Shown here: positions 18,384 to 29,278 of the stretch, in pieces
Layout of the letters: each line of letters opens with the position of its first letter
How positions within the stretch are numbered: position 1 is the stretch's first letter
Assembly: GCA_002786025.1 (NCBI GenBank)
Contig: NHNW01000058.1
Location: 310,001-374,000, forward strand
Direction: 5' to 3'
DNA: 64,000 bases
DNA from: Zasmidium citrigriseum
Taxonomy: Eukaryota; Ascomycota; Dothideomycetes; Mycosphaerellales; Mycosphaerellaceae
The notes under the pieces: model-generated
Told to the model about the DNA's origin: nothing
What the model saw: the letters and a program-made list of their open reading frames with translations, nothing else
Database searches by the model: none
Made by a program: the position numbers and the translations under genes

Positions 18384-18947
18384 TCATTCCTCGAAAGGAC
18401 ACATCAACCTGTCTTCATGCTCAGGCCACAGCTCCGCGTAAACCTCACGAGCTAGTCGCCATTCCCAGTCATTTCCCCACTCGCCGTCAGATCTGGATAT
18501 CGTCAGCCTCGTGCTTCAAATACCAGACACTTGGGGTATGTACGTGATCCCAACACACTCTGGGGCAAGCATATACGCCCTCAACATAATGCATGCCACG
18601 ACGGTATCGTAAGGCTTCCGAGCTGTCTTGCAGTACCGCTTCTCGGTGTTTCCGACTTCGATCAGGAACAGCTCGTGACCGTTATCCTCCACGCCGTTGA
18701 TTGCAATCCCTTGCTCCTTGTCCACGAGTGGTGCACTTCGGTTCTTGGAGCCCCAGTTGGCGTTCGGCCAGTTTCCACACAGAGGAATGTCTAGCTCTTC
18801 GATGATCCGACGGGTATCACGAACGAGGCGTGGCCAGGCTCTCTGCCACTTCTCGGAGTCCCAGTCGTGGACCTTGAAGGAATGCGAGTATCTGTCCATC
18901 GTATTTCAGCTGCAGTCATTGGATTCAAAATGATTGACGTACCCCAT
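18384..18947 (-). CDS. HET-N module, stand-alone copy A
   Basis: Unrecognised protein of 153 residues, one of five local paralogs (working name: HET-N module). Exons 18947-18943 (ATGGG only), 18891-18544 and 18492-18384; introns of 51 bases each, GTACGT/GGACAG and GTACAT/TCCAG. Shared features: MGYSH start, WQRAWPRLV, YCKTARKPYD, VVACIMLRAYMLAP, then SDGEW, VYAELWP and a C-terminal CPF where other copies have CPW. No signal peptide or membrane segment; predicted soluble and intracellular. Most distant of the array from the HET gene. It is the only copy on the left side of the two secreted-protein genes. Confidence 0.75.
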
Positions 18948-19496
18948 TCTGACTCAATGAACTCGTTGACGGTGGAAATGGTCCCAAATTGAATGAACTT
19001 GATCGTCGCAATCCGTAAAGTTCATGGATTATTGTCTTGAGGTTGACTTTGTGACCGTCGTGACGAACATTTGTCGATGCATGCTGAGCATTTATGGACG
19101 TTTCTTGCCCGCAGCCTCAAGGCAGCGAGCAACGATTTCACATTCCGCGAGCTGAGGTGCCTAGCAGAGGAATGTTGAAGCTTGCTTCATTGCTGGAAAG
19201 TGCAGCTGCAGCCTGGTGATCTCGTGCAAGTTTGTTTGAGGAACAGTGATGGAACTGTATATCCGATGCTTCTCGTTGTGCAATGCACGAAAGAGGCATT
19301 TATGATTCTGAAACATTCGCATTGCTCTCGGTTTCTGGCTCGATAGCGGTCAGCCCAGTCAGGTAAGGGATGCGGAGAATTCGACCACTCTGACCCGCGA
19401 ACACAATGGTAGCCTGATATTCTAGGGCATTCACGGCTGAACTCCAAGATCGGTGCACTGATCGTGGAGATGTTTTCCGTGCCGAAAAAACCACGA

Positions 19497-19513
19497 TTCA
19501 TCCGAGCCGATAT
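19497..19513 (+). repeat. 17-bp motif shared by both SSP upstream regions
   Basis: TTCATCCGAGCCGATAT occurs here, 547 bases upstream of the first secreted-protein start, and again at 21110-21126 upstream of the second. It may be a regulatory site or a remnant of the duplication. Confidence 0.6.
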
Positions 19514-19950
19514 CTCGGCAGAGGCAGGTGTAGTCTCAGCGCTCAGATGGCTTGGCTAAGAGTACGCTCAATACGACTACACGATGGCAGATACGATGAT
19601 ACAAAGCTCAATCCATGAGTGATATCAATCACAAGACCATTCATTCGGCAGAACGCTGACCAATTGGATTTTGCAAACTCTGTTTCAATCAGGCTATCGT
19701 GACACTGAGACTAGGCTCGAATCAGAAGACCACCTCAGCCCGACTTCTTACTACACCTCGGTCTAGAAGATACTTGTGCTTCCATCAGAGGCCAGACAGC
19801 CCGCATGATCACTTGACCACTCAAGCCAAGTCAACAACGGCTTGCCAATGCGCCGGAAAGGTCTCACCTCAAGGAGGCAGCCTGGACAATGGCAGCATTG
19901 GCAGAAGCAAGAGATTGATAGGTTTCACCGGAAAAGGCGAAGAACGAACA

Positions 19951-19957
19951 TATAAAA
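19951..19957 (+). promoter_or_regulatory. TATA box of SSP1
   Basis: TATAAAA lies 109 bases before the ATG at 20060. The second secreted gene has a TATA element at nearly the same distance, which supports both. Confidence 0.6.
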
Positions 19958-20059
19958 GGTCGTCATCTGGTAGAGTATTCAGCATCATCAACACAGATTC
20001 GAACCAGCTTTCACTCAACACATCCAACTGTCCCGGCTCTTCAATCTCCTCCAACCAAA

Positions 20060-20410
20060 ATGAAGTTCACCATCGTCGCCATCATCGCTGCAATCAGCTC
20101 CGTTGCTGTTGCTCAAAGCCCAAGACCATGGTGCAACCGTGGCACCGCTGGCAACGGTAAATGCGAAGAGGCCGGGCTTTGTAAGTATCAAGATTGGCAA
20201 CATCGGGTACCGTGCCTAACGACTTGACAGTCACGTTCTGCTGCGCTGCTGCAAGGGGTGGCAACTACGTCAACGAGAAGCAGGTGAGTGGAACTCCGAA
20301 TGAATTGCAGGCTGCTTACAACGTCCGCTGACTTTCGATGGCAGGACGCCTACGACGCTGGACTCGGCGCTTGCGACAACGGCCAGGGAACGGTCATGTG
20401 TGCCGCATAG
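20060..20410 (+). CDS. Small secreted six-cysteine protein SSP1
   Basis: 79 residues in three exons: 20060-20180, 20231-20283, 20345-20410; introns 50 and 61 bases (GTAAGT/TGACAG, GTGAGT/GGCAG). Signal peptide MKFTIVAIIAAISSVAVA, then a mature chain of about 60 residues with six cysteines in the order C-C-CC-C-C (WCN, KCE, FCC, ACD, MCA). Such small, disulfide-rich secreted proteins act in fungi as effectors, antimicrobial peptides or interaction factors; I do not recognise this family and assign no activity. Tandem paralog of the gene at 21826 with identical exon lengths (121, 53, 66). Lies on the opposite strand to the HET-N modules that surround it. Confidence 0.85.
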
Positions 20411-20639
20411 ATCACTCAATGCTTGGCAAGGGCAGGAGAGAGGACTTCTGAAGGTTGATCAACATCGTGTTGTGCCGCTTCTGTTAGATGACAATTCTCC
20501 GGAAACGATATCCTTGTTCGAAGTTGTTTGCTTTTCATCCGTGATCATCGATGTCTGTGGCATGAGCCCTTTGAAGCCCACAGTTCTCTCAAGTAAGCTG
20601 AGCAGAGCTCTGGTACATACCGGTATCTTGTTAAAAGTT

Positions 20640-20930
20640 GCAGGTATTACTGATAATACAAACACTTCTGAGATCTGGAGCATCTGTTAGATCTCCCAAA
20701 GATGATGGGTTTATATGTGCTCTGACCACTCCTCGCTGTCTTCGGTGTCTCAACACGGACAAGCAGTCCAAGTGAGTGGCACTGCATTGTGCTGTCCGGT
20801 ACTCTTGTCTGTTGGTTTCCTTGAGAGGGTCGTTGACGACTTCGATTATCGACGGACTCGACGATGAGCTTGGTATCTTGAAAGACGTCTGGCCGTTCCA
20901 CTCCCAAGTCAGGCGCTCATTGAAGGAAAG
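20640..20930 (-). pseudogene. decayed HET-N module copy (relic)
   Basis: The minus-strand sequence around 20894-20854 aligns with the intact copies where they read WPTLVEDAKLIIETA; here the relic reads RPDVFQDTKLIVESV, and about 31 of 44 bases match copy B over this core. Frame continuity, the CKTARKPYD region and the splice sites are gone. The match is short, so this is a suggestion, but its position within the array and matching strand support it. Confidence 0.35.
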
Positions 20931-21109
20931 TTCACAAGGGCGGGCGGTGGTCTTATATTCAACCGCTGTACAGGGCTGCGCTGCCACATCCAATCACTAA
21001 TTGATTTTGTTGGCCTCGAAATTGATATTGGCCGATTCTGGATCTACCTCTCATGACCCTTCGTTCATTCGTATGATCTTATTGAACAGCTGAGCCAAAT
21101 CAACCATGC

Positions 21110-21126
21110 TTCATCCGAGCCGATAT
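21110..21126 (+). repeat. 17-bp motif, second instance
   Basis: Same 17 bases as at 19497-19513, here 700 bases upstream of the SSP2 start. Confidence 0.6.
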
Positions 21127-21703
21127 ATACGCGGCGAGTAGACTCAATGCGCCGACTTCGTGAGACAGACACGACACACGAGAATACGAATTATCTTGAC
21201 GACGACATCTTGTTGCAGAGTGACGACATTCTAGAGCCTGATGATGTTCACCAAGTTGATTAGCAAATGCTATGGAGTCTCCATAAAGCTTGCGGTAAGG
21301 CTGTCACATACTTGTATGTTGGAAACTACAACCAACCGACAGCAGATACCTAGGTTGCTACGACTCTTCGTCTATTTGGTTTGAGTCCGAACTTCAGATG
21401 CCGTCTCACTCGTAGTGAAACATTCGATCAGATAGTCCTCGCTGCGCCGGGGCTAAGTATCGATCCGTGTCCACGAAAAGCAGCCTCATGCCGCAGTCTG
21501 GACCATGTTCAAGAGTCTAGATCATCGTAACCTTCCATATGGTAATCTCGTCAGCCTCGAAGACCTTCTGAGCGCGGGATAGGCAGACCTCATGGCTCGC
21601 GAATTCAGCGAGCTGGTCTCACCACTTGAGAGACTTGTCGGACAATCTCAGGACTCTCAGGAGGCAGCTGACTCTGAAGTCGAGAACTCCGGCGATTGTT
21701 GGA

Positions 21704-21711
21704 TATATAAA
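21704..21711 (+). promoter_or_regulatory. TATA box of SSP2
   Basis: TATATAAA about 115 bases before the ATG at 21826, matching the spacing at SSP1. Confidence 0.6.
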
Positions 21712-21825
21712 GACTGTAGTTGTCGCAGGACGTTCACAGTTACCATCGACAGCTTTCTGAATCGTCTTCCACCTTCCTACCAACGAACCCGACGCTCAGA
21801 CTCATTAGTCTTCAAGCAACACAAG

Positions 21826-22175
21826 ATGCACTTCTCGGTCTTTGCTATCATTACCACCATCACCTCTGTCGCTATGGCACAGAGCGCAAGGCCATGGTGC
21901 AACACTGGCTGGAGTGGCAACGGCGGATGTGAGAATGCAGGCAAATGTAGGTTTCAAGCATGGATCAATAAGCACGTCTGACGACTTGATAGTCACTTTC
22001 TGCTGCGGCGCTGCCGAGGGTGGTGCATTCGGAAACTGGAAGCCTGTAAGTAGCGCTGCTACGACAGCGGGCTGCTGATTGTTTGGTGTACTGACTTTGA
22101 AAACAACAGGACGCTTACGATGCCGGCATTGGTCCTTGCCTCGGCGGTCTCGGTACAGTCATGTGCGCTGCATAG
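21826..22175 (+). CDS. Small secreted six-cysteine protein SSP2
   Basis: 79 residues in exons 21826-21946, 21993-22045 and 22110-22175; introns 46 and 64 bases (GTAGGT/GATAG, GTAAGT/AACAG). Same architecture as SSP1: signal peptide ending SVAMA, then QSARPWCN, GCE, TFCCGAA, DAYDAG, PCL, TVMCAA, with six cysteines in the same order. Exon lengths and intron phases are identical to SSP1, so the pair arose by tandem duplication. The mature chains differ at many surface-type positions (for example KCEEAG versus GCENAG, EKQ versus WKP) while cysteines and the DAYDAG block are kept. Function unknown. Confidence 0.85.
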
Positions 22176-22867
22176 AGGATCCCTCTGACTTCGACATGGG
22201 CAAATTGGATGACTGGTGAGACTCGGTAACAGCGGTGTGCTGGGCTCATTTGCAAGTCCGTATCATTCAAATATCAGCTCCTTGGTCGAACTTTTCATTT
22301 TCAATCCTCTTGCAAATTCTCTGTAATCACTCATTCAGCATCAAGAGGCTCAAGAATGAGCCCTTATCAGCCTGATAGTGGTCAAGCTCTCCCCTCCGTC
22401 CCATGCTATAGCATGTTGCTTGGACCATATCTCTTGATACCTTCGCGCCCAGCACTCATGTCGTCCTCAATGTTCCCAATATCGTCTCAGTCCTCCTCAT
22501 CACAAGGTTATGGCGGTTCACCTTCAAAGCAAGGCTTGCTGGCCCAGCGCTTGCAGCGGTGGCCACGGAGAACTGCCGCGGGCTCTTCTTAGAGTCCTTG
22601 TCAAAGCTCTACAAGACTTGCACCTGCGGCTGACAGATTATGGTTCGAACTACGTTGGATTCCGTTCTCGTTGAATTGAAATCGCCCAGAAATCACGTCT
22701 TTGTTCAACTAGCTGACCTCTTGTCCATTCAAATTACCCTTGCGGCAAACCTAACCGAAAGCAAAGAAAGCAGTACTGAGAAGAACGTTGACGAGCAGCC
22801 CTCTGCTGTTTCAGAGCTCTCCCAATTCAATGTCGATGGTCCTGGCTCATTTGTGCAAGTGATCCTC
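22176..22867. other. intergenic, no clear feature
   Basis: 3' flanks of SSP2 and copy B, which converge. Minus-strand sequence near 22500-22430 encodes a short acidic run (DEED, IEDDMS) that faintly recalls the acidic tail of copy D, but it is too short to call. Confidence 0.4.
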
Positions 22868-23405
22868 CTATTCCTCCCGTTGCTCGCCCCACGGACAAAC
22901 CAATTCGTCTTGTGGCCATAGCCTGCTGTACAGATCACGAACTCGCACCCATTCGTCATTCCAGTCGCCATCGGAGCTGTGTATACTTAGCCTGTTGTCG
23001 ACGTACTCCATTGGAAAACATACCTCACTCCAATCCATGGTGCGAGCATATAGGCCCTAAGTAGGATGCACGCCACGACAATGTCGTAACGCTTACGCGC
23101 TGTCTTGCAGAAACTGAAGTTGTAGTCGTTCTTCTCCGACAGAAAGAAATCTTCGTGCGTGGCATCTCTGCCGCTGAGGCGGATGCCCTTCTCGATGCTT
23201 AAAAGTGGTTGGTCTTCTTGACAGTACGAGCGCTGGACTGGAACTTTGGCAGTCTCGATGATGAGCTTTGCATCTTCGACAAGAGTTGGCCAGACCTTCT
23301 GCCAGTCCTCCGAGCTCCAGTCGATGTGCTTCCAATAGTGCGTGTATCTTTGAAACATAAGTCAAAGCTGTACATAACATTGAGTTCCATCGTATCTTAC
23401 CCCAT
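22868..23405 (-). CDS. HET-N module, stand-alone copy B
   Basis: 145 residues; exons 23405-23401 (ATGGG), 23347-23024, 22976-22868; introns 53 and 47 bases (GTAAGA/CAAAG, GTATGT/CACAG). Reads MGYTHYW, DWSSEDWQKVWPTLVEDAK, LLSIEKGIRLSG, FCKTARKRYD, VVACILLRAYMLAP, then SSDGDW, RDLYSRLWP and VCPWGEQREE at the end. Soluble, no targeting signal seen. It is the most typical short member: the protein stops seven residues after CPW. Function unknown; homologous along its whole length to the N-terminus of the HET protein at 26582-29278. Confidence 0.8.
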
Positions 23406-24103
23406 GGTTTTATCAGACGGCGAAAGAGGACCGCGTTCTGCAGTTGTTGCGATAGTTTGAAGGCTTGGAATCTTTCGAGGTCGACCAGCTTGTCAATGAG
23501 GAATAGTCAAAGTTGCGCATGATAATCTCTTTATATATCCCAGTGGCATCTCAGTTCAAGGCAACAGAGTGTGTCCCTGGGTCCCTCGTCAAGGGTTCAA
23601 GAGCGGCAACCATTGGCTGTAGCCTGACTTCCGTGAAGCGGGCTCCTGGCAATGCGAATTCAGACAGTCCAGGCTGGTTTGCAGCATCCCTTGCGTCTCA
23701 ACATGTCGTACACTCAGAGGCAACAACGATGTTCGTCTTGTCACTTTCAAGCCTAGTCTCATGAGGTCTTGTGGCTTGGGAGATTTGATCGCATGCCTTG
23801 CGGGATTCAGGAGCAATTCTTTGGGCGAATAAACTTGACAACCGGAAGGTCAAAGAGTCTTCAGGCCGAGATAATAGAGATCTAAAAGCTGCGATGGATC
23901 AACCACGGTCTATTCTTCGAATGCGTGTCTTCAGTCAAACCTTCACCCTTCACACGGTAGGCATCTCTGATGAGCAAGTCGTCGATGGCCATTTCTTCCG
24001 GCAACTCGCCATCCTGATCTTCGTGCTCATGAATATACCAATCCAGGACAAAAGAGCGGATTTTGCTTCAATATTCCCTCCTTTCAAGACCTTCGTACTG
24101 ATG
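23406..24103. other. intergenic between copies B and C
   Basis: Promoter of copy B and a probable lost tail of copy C (see 23881-24103). Nothing else seen. Confidence 0.4.
23881..24103 (-). pseudogene. probable lost C-terminal tail of copy C
   Basis: Directly after the stop of copy C the minus strand can be read as an acidic tail (EHEDQDGELPEE, then AIDDLLIRDAY) down to a TAG at about 23881. This recalls the copy D tail (acidic run, then LDDLLKMGAAH). A stop and a frame change separate it from copy C, so it is a relic or a misjudged extra exon. Confidence 0.35.
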
Positions 24104-24601
24104 TTATGGCCACACTTTGCTGTAAAGATCTCGAGCTTCTTCCAACTTCTCCCAAGTCCCGTCCGACCTAGATATGGTCAGCTGCGTTTCGCCACGTAAA
24201 ACCACCACACGAACCTCAAGTCGATTCCGGTACCAAGCGCAATGGCTCTGAGCAGAACACAGCATACGACCGTATCTTTTGGGCTTTGGTCCGTGTTGCA
24301 GAAGGAGATCCCGGTGCACGTGTCTTCCGATAGGTCGGAAAGTACGACGTCTACATGTGGCTTGAACCTGTAGCTGAGTCTCATGCTCCCTTCAACGTCC
24401 ACTAGTGGTTGATCAGATCGCTCATATCGATCTGTGAGTAAGAGTTCGGCAGCCTCCATGATGAGATTGGCATCTTGATGGAGTCTCGGTAATATCGTTC
24501 GCCAATTCTCAGAACTCCAATGGATGCCCTTGTAGAAGTGTGTATAGCTGAGATACACATCAGCCATTGTTCAAATTGAGTGACATGGCGACTGACCCCA
24601 T
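24104..24601 (-). CDS. HET-N module, stand-alone copy C (C-terminally short)
   Basis: 133 residues; exons 24601-24597 (ATGGG), 24547-24215, 24167-24104; introns 49 and 47 bases (GTCAGT/CTCAG, GTTCGT/TCTAG). Reads MGYTHFY, HWSSENWRTILPRLHQDAN, FCNTDQSPKD, VVCCVLLRAIALG, then RSDGTW, ARDLYSKVWP and stop. It is the most divergent copy: the CKTARKPYD motif is altered to CNTDQSPKD and the CPW end is missing. A decayed tail follows. It may be on the way to becoming a pseudogene, although the splice sites and frame are still intact. Confidence 0.65.
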
Positions 24602-25316
24602 GTCTTCTCTCGGATAGTGGACAAAAGCTAGTTGGCACAGGTTGACACTTTCAAATCTCTCGGCTTGAAATGATCTGCCAATGGTAACACGCAGTCTTGC
24701 TTGCCCTGCCGGCTTTTTGAAGCTCTAATATACTTGTTTCAAGGCAACGAGCCATACTCGCGGGATATCTTCTGATGGATCGAGAGCGACGATTATTAGC
24801 TACAGCCTGACGAAGCTGGAGTGGCTTCTCGATCCAGACATGCAAGCCTGATTTGCAGGACCCCTTGCGTCTAAATGCCTTGTCCAGGCAGGAACAGCAG
24901 CAATGGGCTAAAAGTCAATTCTGTAGAGTGATTGTAGTCTTACGAGGATTTATGGTCGCTAGATGGCTCCTACTCATTCGTATAAGAACGACTAGACCTC
25001 TATTTGGGATGAGGCGAACAGGCTGGCCTGCATCGATAAGACGGAGGATCTTTTACCATGCATTGAGGTCTTTTAGGAGCACGAAAAGTAATTCCGACAC
25101 ATTGCCATCCAAGACGTGTGGTTAGAGCGACAACAGATTCAAACTACCCCACGTTGCATACACGATGACGAAGGAAGCAAGCCATTTTGAAATCTATGGT
25201 GTCGTTGACTGAGCTTCTCGAGCTTAGTATGTGATTTGCGTGAAGCCCCTATAAAACTTGCAAGATGGAGAATCATCAGAGCACGGGACTTCAGCGGAGT
25301 GCCAGTCATCAAGCGT
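24602..25316. other. intergenic between copies C and D
   Basis: Promoter of copy C and 3' flank of copy D. No supported feature. Confidence 0.45.
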
Positions 25317-26018
25317 TCACTGTTCGCTCATGACATCCGTGCTCTTACCCTCCTCATCTCTCTTCGTATGCGCGGCTCCCATCTTGAGCAAGTCATCGAG
25401 GGTGAAATAATCAAGCCGCTCCTCCTCGTCACCGTCGTCATCGTCGTCACCGTCATCCTCATCCCAAGGGCAGGCCACCTCGTCCTCAGGCCACAGCTTT
25501 GCATACAGATCACGAGCCTCCTTCCAATCATGCTCCCAATCGCCATCAGAGCTACGCACCCTCAGCTAAGATAATGATATTCCCATGTCAAATTCCACGT
25601 ACCTGACTTGAATAATGGGCCACGCAAGATACGATGCACGTAGCAAGACACAGCACACAACAAGATCATACGGCTTACGTGCCGTCTTGCAAAAGCAATC
25701 TTCCGAGGAGCACTCCTCTTCCGAAAGAATGAAGTCGTCGTGTGACTGCCTTTTGCCGTTGAAATGGATGCCCTTCTCGACGCTTATGAGGGGTGCAAAT
25801 GTGCGTCTCTTCGTCCCATCAGGACCGGGTTCTTCTCTGCGAGGACCCTTCAGCGGCACTTTGGCGGCCTCGATGATGAGCCGTGTATCTTCGACGAGCT
25901 GTGGCCAGATGCTTTGCCAGTCTTCGTGGTTCCAGTCCATGAATTCGTAGTAGTGTGTATAGCTGGCGTTCAACGTTAGACACCGGGTTTAGTCACCTCG
26001 CATCTGAACTCACCCCAT
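25317..26018 (-). CDS. HET-N module, stand-alone copy D with acidic tail
   Basis: 199 residues; exons 26018-26014 (ATGGG), 25962-25603, 25551-25317; introns 51 bases each (GTGAGT/GCCAG, GTACGT/CGTAG). Module: MGYTHYYEF, DWNHEDWQSIWPQLVEDTR, LISVEKGIHFNG, FCKTARKPYD, VVCCVLLRASYLA, SSDGDW, ARDLYAKLWPEDEVACPW. A C-terminal extension follows that the shorter copies lack: a run of Asp/Glu (about 20 residues) and LDYFTLDDLLKMG, ending in a charged tail. The middle of the module also carries a Pro/Arg/Lys insert (GPRREEPGPDGTKRR). Function unknown. Nearest stand-alone neighbour of the HET gene. Confidence 0.8.
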
Positions 26019-26581
26019 GGTGTTTTGGACCCAGCAGACTTCCGTATAGATATCAGCAGTGTACTTTGGTTTTGCGAAGCCCGTATGGTGGGCTCGATCT
26101 TTTGAAAGCAGATTTGAAGTGTCGAAGTAGAGAGTGGGAGAGGACTGGATTGGCTGTTCATATAGCCGTGTCACAGTCGCAGATAAAGGCAACACAGATG
26201 GTAATCTGCCGCCGCGGGATCTCTGTTAGTTTCATAGAGCCGCCTACGTCGTTTGCAGCCTGGCGAGGTTGTACGGTCTCTGAGGTGTGGGTGTGCCAAG
26301 GCCGCAGCCTGATTTGTGCCACGTCCACGCCCCAAGCCGTCGCACAAGAACACTCAACCGCGACACAGGTCGCTCAGTCACGCAGTGAAGGTCAACTGCT
26401 CAATGGTATGAGTTCGTGCGAACCGACAATCTCGTACAACTCTGCTAGTGAGTTGTTGATCGAGGAGCCAACAAGAGACCGCTTGCCAGAATGCTTTTGT
26501 CGAACACGTCCGAAGGAAACTTGTGCATTTGTTAAAGCAGCATATAATTCTTATGCCGAGTACCCGACTATCCGCAAGCCT
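26019..26581. other. intergenic between copy D and the HET gene
   Basis: Promoter of copy D and 3' flank of the HET-domain gene. No supported feature. Confidence 0.45.
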
Positions 26582-29278
26582 TTAGACAACCTCAAGATCC
26601 ACCATCTCAGCTTGGGCCATCATCCATCGCTTCCGAGCGATATCCGTGTCCATGACCTGAACTCGCTCATACTTTGCGTATAACGTACGATTGTTCAGTT
26701 TTCGTAGCATCATGAGCATCGTGATCTTCCAATCGCCACCCGAGGTGTCCCGCGTGCCATTCAAAGCCATAAATTCAGCGACCCAAAAGCGAGGGAATTG
26801 CTCGCGCCATTGGCGGTCTAGCCAGATCGATCCCATTGGAATGTGGGCATCACATCGCTCGTGAGAGTCGTGCTCGGCTGGGTCGTAGTCCTTCATGTTC
26901 TTCCTGGTGGCATTGATGGAAACTGCTGGGTCTCGGAGATCGCCTCTGCGGAGGATTTGCCTCTCAATCTTACCCATCTCCCCTTGGTTTTCTCCTCGTT
27001 CGTCCTCTAAATCCAGTCGAATCAGTTGTCCAACAAGGGTGAAAGCGCACATGGTCTTTGGCAGTTCGAGATGATCACAGAACTTGCCACAGCCGCCCTC
27101 TACGCATGTCTTGAATCCGAGAGAGGAACAAGATGTAGGGAATATCAAGTAGCGACCCTGAGAGCCTTCGCTCTCTTCTGGCGTATCTGACACCATCAGC
27201 TTCGCTATACTGGCTTGTATGTTCAAAAACATCGAGGCTTCCAACAGGTCGAAGGTGGGTGCGGCGGGAAAGCCAAAGCTGCCATATTCATCAGGACATT
27301 CCCAAGCTCGGTGTACCGACGCTGGCCTGCGAGGGCCTTGCGCAACTCGCAGTTGCGGGGCACCGGACGAGAAGTAAAGCTCTATCCCTTCGTAATGGTT
27401 GATCGTATGGTCAGTCTGGGCGTGCTCAAAGATCTTTCGGTCAAAAACAGCAGCGGTGTTCCATCCCAGCCAAGAGAAAGAAGGGAATGCCGAGATCCGT
27501 GATCTTGGGTCGTGAACGGCTGCACGCCAACACAGTGCTTGATCGAACGCCAGCGATGGTAGGCCCCACCGGAATCCAGACCGTTGACCATCCACGCCAT
27601 GGGCGTATTGCCGGAAAACGCCTTCGAATGCATTTTGCCGATCATCGAGATTCCCCAGTTGTCGTCTTGAGTAGTACTCCACGGCAGCCAGGTATGATTC
27701 CAGTTGTTTCCCCTCGGGTACATCGATCAGTCCACCACAGGTGTTGTACTTATCAAGCGTCCGCCCTGAAATCCGTGGCATCTGTATTCCTTCCAGGGTG
27801 AAGATTCCTTCTTGACATTGTAGAAATATCCCATGGCTTGTGAAAAGTATCATCCGGTGGGACAGAACCTTTTCTTGATAGCACCAGGCCCGCTTGCTCC
27901 AGGGCGACGCCTCGACCAACTCAGATACAGCGTCTTGGGAGCGAAGCTCTTCACAGTCCATCGCAGGAGAGATTATCAATCCCTCATCGGCAGTAGCAGC
28001 CGAGACAGCCGCAATGGTCAGTTTCGCCGAAGCATAAATTTGCCTCATCCAGGTGATTTGAATTTGCTTGTCAATCGACGAGTCCTGTAAGATGCAAAGG
28101 GTGTCTGTCCAGAGATATCGTTCCCCAAGATTTTCGCACCCCAGAATCGCGTCGCGGACGGTCGTTGAAAGTTTCGGCCACAGGGCCTTAAGACTGCCGG
28201 TCTTCATCAATACCGACTCTGTCTCCCGCGTCAGCTTCAATTGATTAACCCCACCCCAAACGTATGTTAACGCGATGAATGATTCCGGCTCATGCACCGG
28301 AACAAGGCATCGTTGTCTGACGTCGACGAGTCGAAAGCAGACATCGGGTAGTCTCTCGGGCTTGAATTGAAAGGGTTTGCAGGCCAGGTGCTCAGCGTTC
28401 GAGTCGCAGCACTTTAGCCAACGAGAAGCACCACCAAGATCCAGCTGTGTCACCGTTTCCTTTGCATCTTGCGAGTTCGTCTCGTGTCTATCATACTGAA
28501 TTGTTCCCGGGGGGTCTGAGAGCTTCATGCTCGCGATGGAAGTCTGTAAATCCTTATCATATTGGCGGGCGTCCTCCGCTCGGGCTACATCCGCGCTCGT
28601 AAGGCTAGACTGGCCAGTGTCGCCGCCATTGCCCTTTGGAAGGCTCTCTGTCTGATCGTCGGCCTGCCTGGAGCAAGGCCTTCCCTCTACGCCAGCTTCA
28701 GAGTCTTTGCAATGACCTTGACTTGGTTTCTTCCAGGGACAAGTCAGCGACTCCTCGGGCCAAATGTTAATGTAGAGTTGGCGAATCCGCAACCACTTCA
28801 ATTCGTCCCAGTCACCATCAGAGCTAGAAGTGTAAGCTTCGTATTCAAAGAATAGACCTTGAATCTTGCTTACCCGATTGTAATACACTCAGGGGCATGC
28901 TTGTAGGCTCTCAGCAGCACACAACCCACAACGACGTCGTAGGCCTTGCCAAACGTCTTACAATAGTCGGTCTCGGGGAGGTAATCAACCGCAAGCTCGA
29001 AAGTCTGGTGGCAGCCCTCGAACACTCCGTTGATCTTGATCCCTTCTTCTAAGCTGACGAGCGGTGGTTCAAGCTCTCCGTGTTCCAAGTTACCGCCGTG
29101 GTCAGATCCGCAAAGACGGACGTCGGCCGCTTCGACAATAAGCCGTGTATCTTCGACCAGCTTTGGCCAAATCTGTTGCCACAATTCCCACTTGTCGGCC
29201 TTGAAGTGCCATCTGTGAGAGTAGCTATGACTGATTAGCGCTTTTCTCCTTGTCCTTGGGTTCTGCGACGTACCCCAT
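26582..29278 (-). CDS. HET-domain protein with N-terminal HET-N module (copy E)
   Basis: HET domains (PF06985) trigger or carry the cell-death response of heterokaryon incompatibility. Exons 29278-29274 (ATGGG), 29224-28874, 28823-26582; introns 49 and 50 bases (GTACGT/CATAG, GTAAGC/TCTAG). 865 residues. Residues 1-150 are the local module: MGYSHRW, WQQIWPKLVEDTR, LVSLEEGIKING, YCKTFGKAYD, VVGCVLLRAYKHAP, GSDGDW, LYINIWPEESLTCPW. A low-complexity linker follows (about 151-270), then the HET domain from about 300: FIALTYVWGG, LWTDTLCILQDS, QIYASAKLTIAAV, and the usual RAWCYQEKVLS and later FPSFSWLGW. No NACHT, WD40 or ankyrin part seen. The splice that joins the module to the HET part uses the same intron position and phase as the stand-alone copies. 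Confidence 0.88.

Follow-up and report, generated by a model that had tools for sequence, protein, structure and literature searches.

A window of 64,000 nucleotides, the whole stretch analysed here, from contig NHNW01000058.1 of the ascomycete Zasmidium citrigriseum carries five related genes for a module of about 150 residues. Four of these genes (M1 to M4) encode the module as a free-standing small protein, and the fifth (M5-HET) encodes it as the N-terminus of a protein with a HET domain. Relatives of the module were found in Pezizomycotina and bacteria, on plasmids and in large phages, and by the fusions found in four other fungi its joining to a HET domain is recurrent rather than a local accident. 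A tentative explanation, which we regard as possible, is that M5-HET is a HET effector whose N-terminal sensor was derived from a free-standing protein of prokaryotic type, the free copies being its partners or its source. HET domains are abundant in filamentous fungi, and what most of them sense is the wider question addressed here.

The module cluster

A preliminary description of the window had listed five copies of one module, the fifth being the N-terminus of a HET protein, and both splice models and pairwise BLASTP confirm the copies and their positions (Table 1). The splice sites were picked by eye from the DNA alone, so as to keep the reading frame open and to agree with the remaining copies. 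In all five genes, exon 1 consists of the five bases ATGGG, a first phase-2 intron of 49–53 nt is followed by an exon 2 of 324–360 nt that holds most of the module, and a second phase-2 intron of 47–51 nt precedes an exon 3 whose first base completes the codon in front of SDG. All ten introns are of the GT..AG type. Because the five copies have this gene structure in common, their five motif lists represent one gene family. Pairwise BLASTP gives 31–54% identity between the modules with E values of 6e-16 to 3e-56, so their likeness is not due to chance. The strong divergence and the head-to-tail order on one strand were described correctly. As small corrections, M3 is degenerate and M4 has an additional acidic tail. 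Because all five genes lie on the minus strand, M5-HET is the first gene of the row, which reads M5-HET, M4, M3, M2, M1 from 5' to 3'; 563 bp separate the stop of M5-HET from the start of M4.

The second intron of M5-HET lies at 28873–28824, as had been claimed. Exon 3 then stays open for 746 codons, which include the HET domain and lead up to the stop at 26582, and therefore no splice is required between module and HET domain. The match of M5-HET to PF06985 in Pfam has an E value of 1.1e-23 and a score of 84.6 bits, against a curated cut-off of 22.5. A search of the whole genome (44.4 Mb in 148 contigs) gave eight exon matches with M4 and nine with M5 as query, every one of them inside the cluster; no module copy was found beyond it with these two queries, which strongly diverged copies could escape.

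Table 1 Genes of the module cluster and the pair of cysteine-rich genes between M1 and M2
Feature	Position	Strand	Exons	Length (aa)	Remarks
M1, free module	18384..18947	-	18947-18943, 18891-18544, 18492-18384	153	
Cys-rich protein	20060-20410	+		79	
Cys-rich protein	21826-22175	+		79	
M2, free module	22868..23405	-	23405-23401, 23347-23024, 22976-22868	145	
M3, free module	24104..24601	-	24601-24597, 24547-24215, 24167-24104	133	Degenerate
M4, free module	25317..26018	-	26018-26014, 25962-25603, 25551-25317	199	Acidic C-terminal tail
M5-HET	26582..29278	-	29278-29274, 29224-28874, 28823-26582	865	Module 1-151; linker 152-262; HET domain 301-436; C-terminal region with PSFSWLGW

Module–HET fusions in other fungi

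A search for the module in long proteins, to which only proteins of about 470–1,500 residues were admitted, gave four matches among 96 candidates. All four are module–HET fusions, and no other kind of module fusion was present among the long proteins found. Their hosts, Paraphaeosphaeria sporulosa, Trichoderma velutinum, Cladophialophora psammophila and Colletotrichum filicis, span three classes (Dothideomycetes, Eurotiomycetes and Sordariomycetes). The four proteins are collinear with M5-HET from the module through the last residues, the Trichoderma gene model having 38 additional residues in front. Identity to M5-HET amounts to 40–55% in the module, 15–30% in the variable linker and 46–63% in the HET core. 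The HET domain is followed by the motif PSFSW in M5-HET and PSWSW in its four relatives, and no Pfam domain besides PF06985 is found in the five proteins at E ≤ 0.1. In a tree with the nine nearest HET genes of the Zasmidium genome, whose rows have long branches, the HET parts of the five fusions come out as a single clade (support 100/99), and no module was seen at these nine loci. A single fusion event is likely on this phylogeny. The preliminary description had read the module as a sensing or partner domain; a module that is unnamed and coupled to HET domains beyond this locus would fit that reading, and its interpretation as a whole is partly supported.

The module family in fungi, prokaryotes and phages

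The module had been described as no named domain, and library searches agree. No match was obtained in Pfam with the five window copies (at E values up to 5) and five phage members, in PHROGs with four of the window copies plus five phage members, or in NCBIfam and PADLOC with the five window copies, so the family is a gap in the curated libraries tried. The strings FCKTARKPYD and GYTHYW were not found in the open-access full text of PubMed Central (PMC). A profile of the five copies, the check that the preliminary description had proposed, gave 4,335 candidates, of which 3,079 proteins match at E ≤ 1e-3, Pezizomycotina included. Among the 120 matches listed, 35 have a fungal name, with sources that include Aspergillus, Penicillium, Zasmidium, Zymoseptoria and Pyrenophora, and the remainder are mostly metagenomic. 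Viral contigs yielded 201 relatives out of 276 stretches, 80 of these relatives being retained, and relatives are present in 19 of 37 stretches of prokaryote genomes. A query with the metagenomic member P0059 matched 8 of 50,697 phage records (144–595 kb) and, among 72,556 plasmid records, 14; the annotation is hypothetical protein in all 14 plasmid records and in seven of the eight phage records, the eighth being without annotation. These phage, plasmid and bacterial proteins, of the pattern GYTH...FCKTA(R/Q)KPYD...SDG, are of the same family as the window copies, the metagenomic and phage rows being 28–45% identical to the Zasmidium module, and differ from the fungal genes in being single open frames, none of them seen with a HET domain.

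Thirteen residues are invariant in 102 aligned members: M1, G2, Y3, N67, G68, E75, K90, T91, Y96, D97, D120, G121 and W129. Because the scans of viral contigs and genomes relied on patterns around FCKTA(R/Q)KPYD, and sets made later took only rows starting with MGYTH, conservation in these sets is partly a product of selection; E75, N67-G68, D120-G121 and W129 lie outside the scan patterns. The Zasmidium homologue P0001 is predicted to have a confident fold (predicted local distance difference test score, pLDDT, 93.9). Its fold has no convincing match in the PDB, and the fold matches listed include no PII row, although a PII fold may still be possible. In the viral-contig member at 5001–5888 of L025, the C-terminus is extended by a stretch that resembles a SWIM zinc finger (Pfam E 0.029, short of the cut-off), and the phage members at 1415–2173 of L126, 4001–4777 of L135 and 4001–4771 of L136 have about 100 additional C-terminal residues.

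The gene neighbourhood was inspected in 13 annotated phage and plasmid regions, where the module gene stands among small, mostly hypothetical genes. Single cases have ArdA and SSB (a Streptomyces plasmid), SSB, a SWIM protein and a Rad52-type protein (a Thermus plasmid), an SprT-like protease (a Microbacterium phage) or a zincin-like metallopeptidase (a Paenibacillus plasmid) near the module gene. LPD29 or DUF932 is found near it in Streptomyces plasmids, and restriction or methylation genes in two further regions; three other phage regions and one plasmid among the 13 have no such neighbours. Clustering of the neighbours at 95 loci, which represent 34 module lineages, gave no constant partner gene, the counts by lineage being seven for GP88, four for DUF932 and two for ArdC-like proteins. 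Because there is no constant partner and the cases are single, the link to anti-restriction is a lead and not a result. It is quite unlikely that ascomycetes kept a phage or plasmid accessory protein, partly of anti-restriction neighbourhoods, in free form and integrated copies of it as a sensor into HET effectors, with modules swapped on one HET chassis. If this were true, a fungal immune receptor would have a domesticated counter-defence protein of a mobile element as its sensor.

Divergence of the window copies

Nonsynonymous divergence (dN) among the window copies is 0.36–0.68, and synonymous divergence (dS) is 1.3–3.3 or, in three of the ten pairs, beyond estimate. Third codon positions are 31–46% identical, silent sites being saturated, and the longest DNA stretch in common over the ten pairs is 17 nt, so that no near-identical tract was found between free and fused copies. 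Because of these values, the window copies are old duplicates, apparently under constraint and without recent gene conversion. The preliminary description had considered a supply of variants by gene conversion, which is not borne out for recent times. A more general form of this idea, in which the HET gene would receive variants from the free copies as silent cassettes, would suit the same-strand, head-to-tail array and a hint, in the trees described below, that free and fused modules underwent some exchange long ago. It is very improbable, since no common tract exceeds 17 nt, third positions are so different and the free genes retain their start, introns and frame; the 17-nt maximum over ten pairs likewise disfavours a recently converted cassette array.

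Conservation was scored at 26 columns, each conserved in at least 90% of 129 metagenomic and phage rows (125–200 residues, starting with MGYTH). M4 retains 25 of these columns, M2 24, M1 22, M5 20 and M3 16. M1 keeps N67, E75, CKTARKPYD and SDG, whereas M2 has N67 changed to S and P95 to R, and M4 has E75 changed to D. M3 has FCNTDQSPKD instead of FCKTARKPYD and is without the N-G pair, the E and the CPW tail. Its frame is open and its introns are intact, yet 10 of the 26 conserved columns are lost, which suggests a decaying or repurposed copy.

Free and fused modules

The free fungal set comprises 30 of the first 33 profile matches, P0027, P0029 and P0031 being omitted as odd or partial; it includes P0007, which has no source name, and rows P0042, P0057 and P0089 were left out. 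At least two of the 129 metagenomic and phage rows (P0040 and P0041) fall within the fungal clade. The fungal modules and two metagenomic rows group together with support of 91/86 in a tree of 81 rows and 100/100 in a second tree, from which M3 was omitted and which had four outgroup rows. One fungal module group is the pattern expected from one entry into fungi. The module of M5 groups with M1 and Zasmidium P0001 in both trees (97/82 and 92/77), and the other four fused modules group with free copies of Aspergillus and Penicillium (97/93 and 92/98). Forcing the fused modules together is weakly rejected by the approximately unbiased (AU) test (p 0.039, or 0.025 without M3), the tests having been chosen after the trees were seen; for the five window copies, such forcing is not rejected (p 0.325). 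Free and fused genes may therefore have exchanged modules over long times, with either kind as the donor, a marginal result.

These trees bear on the possibility that the cluster is an allorecognition (het) locus, in which the module array would be the variable part under balancing selection and the free and fused modules of different haplotypes would recognise each other. The copies are strongly diverged, and the fused modules are perhaps not one clade though their HET parts are, as if modules turned over on a fixed HET chassis; the PSFSW/PSWSW motif is one that PMC10890737 names for TOL and PIN-C. Against this, only four of the 132 Podospora HET genes have a role in incompatibility according to the same source, the AU values are marginal and come from a post-tree test, and one clade of the five window copies is not rejected. 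We consider an allorecognition locus unlikely.

Fused modules may also differ from free ones at two conserved columns. E75 is changed in three of the five fused modules (to D, D and Q), in one of the 30 free fungal modules, in two of the four free window copies and in none of the 129 metagenomic and phage rows. A92 is changed in four of five, six of 30, one of four and none of 129, respectively. Fisher tests of fused against free fungal modules give p 0.006 for E75 and p 0.017 for A92, the rows being related to each other. P95 is changed in two of five fused and two of 30 free fungal modules, no difference at the 0.05 level. K94, H74, D97, D120, K90 and T91 are retained in all five fused modules.

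A sensor model and its alternatives

The gene structures, the module family and its prokaryotic spread, the recurrent fusion, the one HET lineage among those compared and the changed residues are read directly. From these we infer a pocket, the binding of a ligand or partner, activation, death and a role of the free copies as follows. In the free module, the invariant residues would form a pocket through which a ligand is bound or acted on. Most of this pocket would persist in the fused module, often without the near-invariant glutamate, so that the fused module would bind the ligand, or an altered state of the free protein, but act on neither. Such binding would free the HET domain and lead to cell death, and the role of the free copies would be either that of the monitored protein or that of co-sensors by which a threshold is set. 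A fused version that binds without acting is favoured because near-invariant residues are changed in the fused copies, and the module is cast as sensor, the HET domain as executioner and the free copies as monitored proteins or co-sensors because of the analogy to het-B.

Several observations weigh against this model. Ten columns were inspected, and the eight others show no difference at the 0.05 level; C89 is changed in four of five fused modules, yet also in 14 of the 30 free fungal ones. A tree-based residue test is left with one or two independent pairs among related rows and has no power. Two of the three E75 changes in fused modules are the mild change from E to D, and E75 is also lost in the free copies M4 (D) and M3 (V). 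The predicted structure of the whole fused protein has a pLDDT of 37 and gives no usable fold. HET domains are abundant in the Zasmidium genome (at least 150 matches, from 282 candidates), and thus a HET neighbour as such is unremarkable. This richness in HET genes, together with one copy that seems to be decaying (M3), would suit an incidental arrangement, in which tandem duplicates of an ordinary accessory enzyme include one that was joined to a HET protein of unrelated role. The fusion is found in three classes and in one HET lineage with a C-terminus in common, and no other fusion kind occurs among the long proteins found, so an incidental arrangement is improbable.

In a toxin–antitoxin-like alternative, the free modules would hold the fused HET effector inactive, and their loss or mismatch, as when unlike strains fuse, would trigger death. 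Free and fused copies of one module stand side by side, incompatibility through adjacent non-allelic genes is known for het-B (PMC10890737), and the dN range against saturated dS suggests constraint. Free copies are present in many fungi, however, and four copies at 31–54% identity exceed what an inhibitor needs. This alternative appears rather unlikely, and the sensor model described above is preferred, if tentatively.

Comparison with known systems

In Podospora anserina het-B, death is decided jointly by a HET gene and a small PII-like protein encoded next to it, Bh being a HET–lectin protein and Bp the PII-like protein, as described in PMC10890737. The same source gives bacterial proteins as the nearest relatives of the small protein outside Pezizomycotina, counts 89 pairs of PII-like and HET neighbours in distant fungal classes and reports HET-domain cell death for other HET proteins. 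The window resembles het-B in that a HET gene adjoins, within the 563 bp given above, a small gene of a bacterial-type family. However, the small protein of the window is of another, unnamed family by sequence, the module is also fused N-terminally to the HET protein and is present in four free copies, and the HET C-terminus is of the PSFSW type, with the HET domain as the only Pfam match. A HET effector with a small partner is a known kind of system, to which the window adds the fusion of the module. Neurospora TOL and PIN-C (PMC10890737), compared by motif only, likewise have a HET domain followed by PSFSW or PSWSW, and M5-HET differs from them in its additional N-terminal module. Plant NLR-ID proteins are immune receptors with integrated decoys (PMC12258605). 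The module–HET proteins would at most work like them, as receptors with a domain copied from a free protein and partly changed at conserved sites; in M5-HET and its four relatives, Pfam shows no NLR scaffold at E ≤ 0.1.

The arrangement hints at a new sensor part for self/non-self recognition or immune cell death in fungi, and ties a phage and plasmid protein family of unassigned role to a eukaryotic HET effector. The candidate sensor is small, its family has a confidently predicted fold, and its relatives number in the thousands. Because many of these are prokaryotic or viral, its ligand can be sought in bacteria and phages, and then with the fungal HET protein.

Other features of the window

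Between M1 and M2, two paralogous Cys-rich proteins are encoded on the plus strand (Table 1). By inspection, both have an apparent signal peptide, six Cys residues and two intron sites in common, and neither has a match in Pfam. In the upstream regions of M1 to M5 (560–600 bp), four 6-mers are common to all five, compared with at most two in shuffled sequences, and a block of 44 nt is common to those of M2 and M3. The upstream regions may thus point to co-regulation of the five genes.

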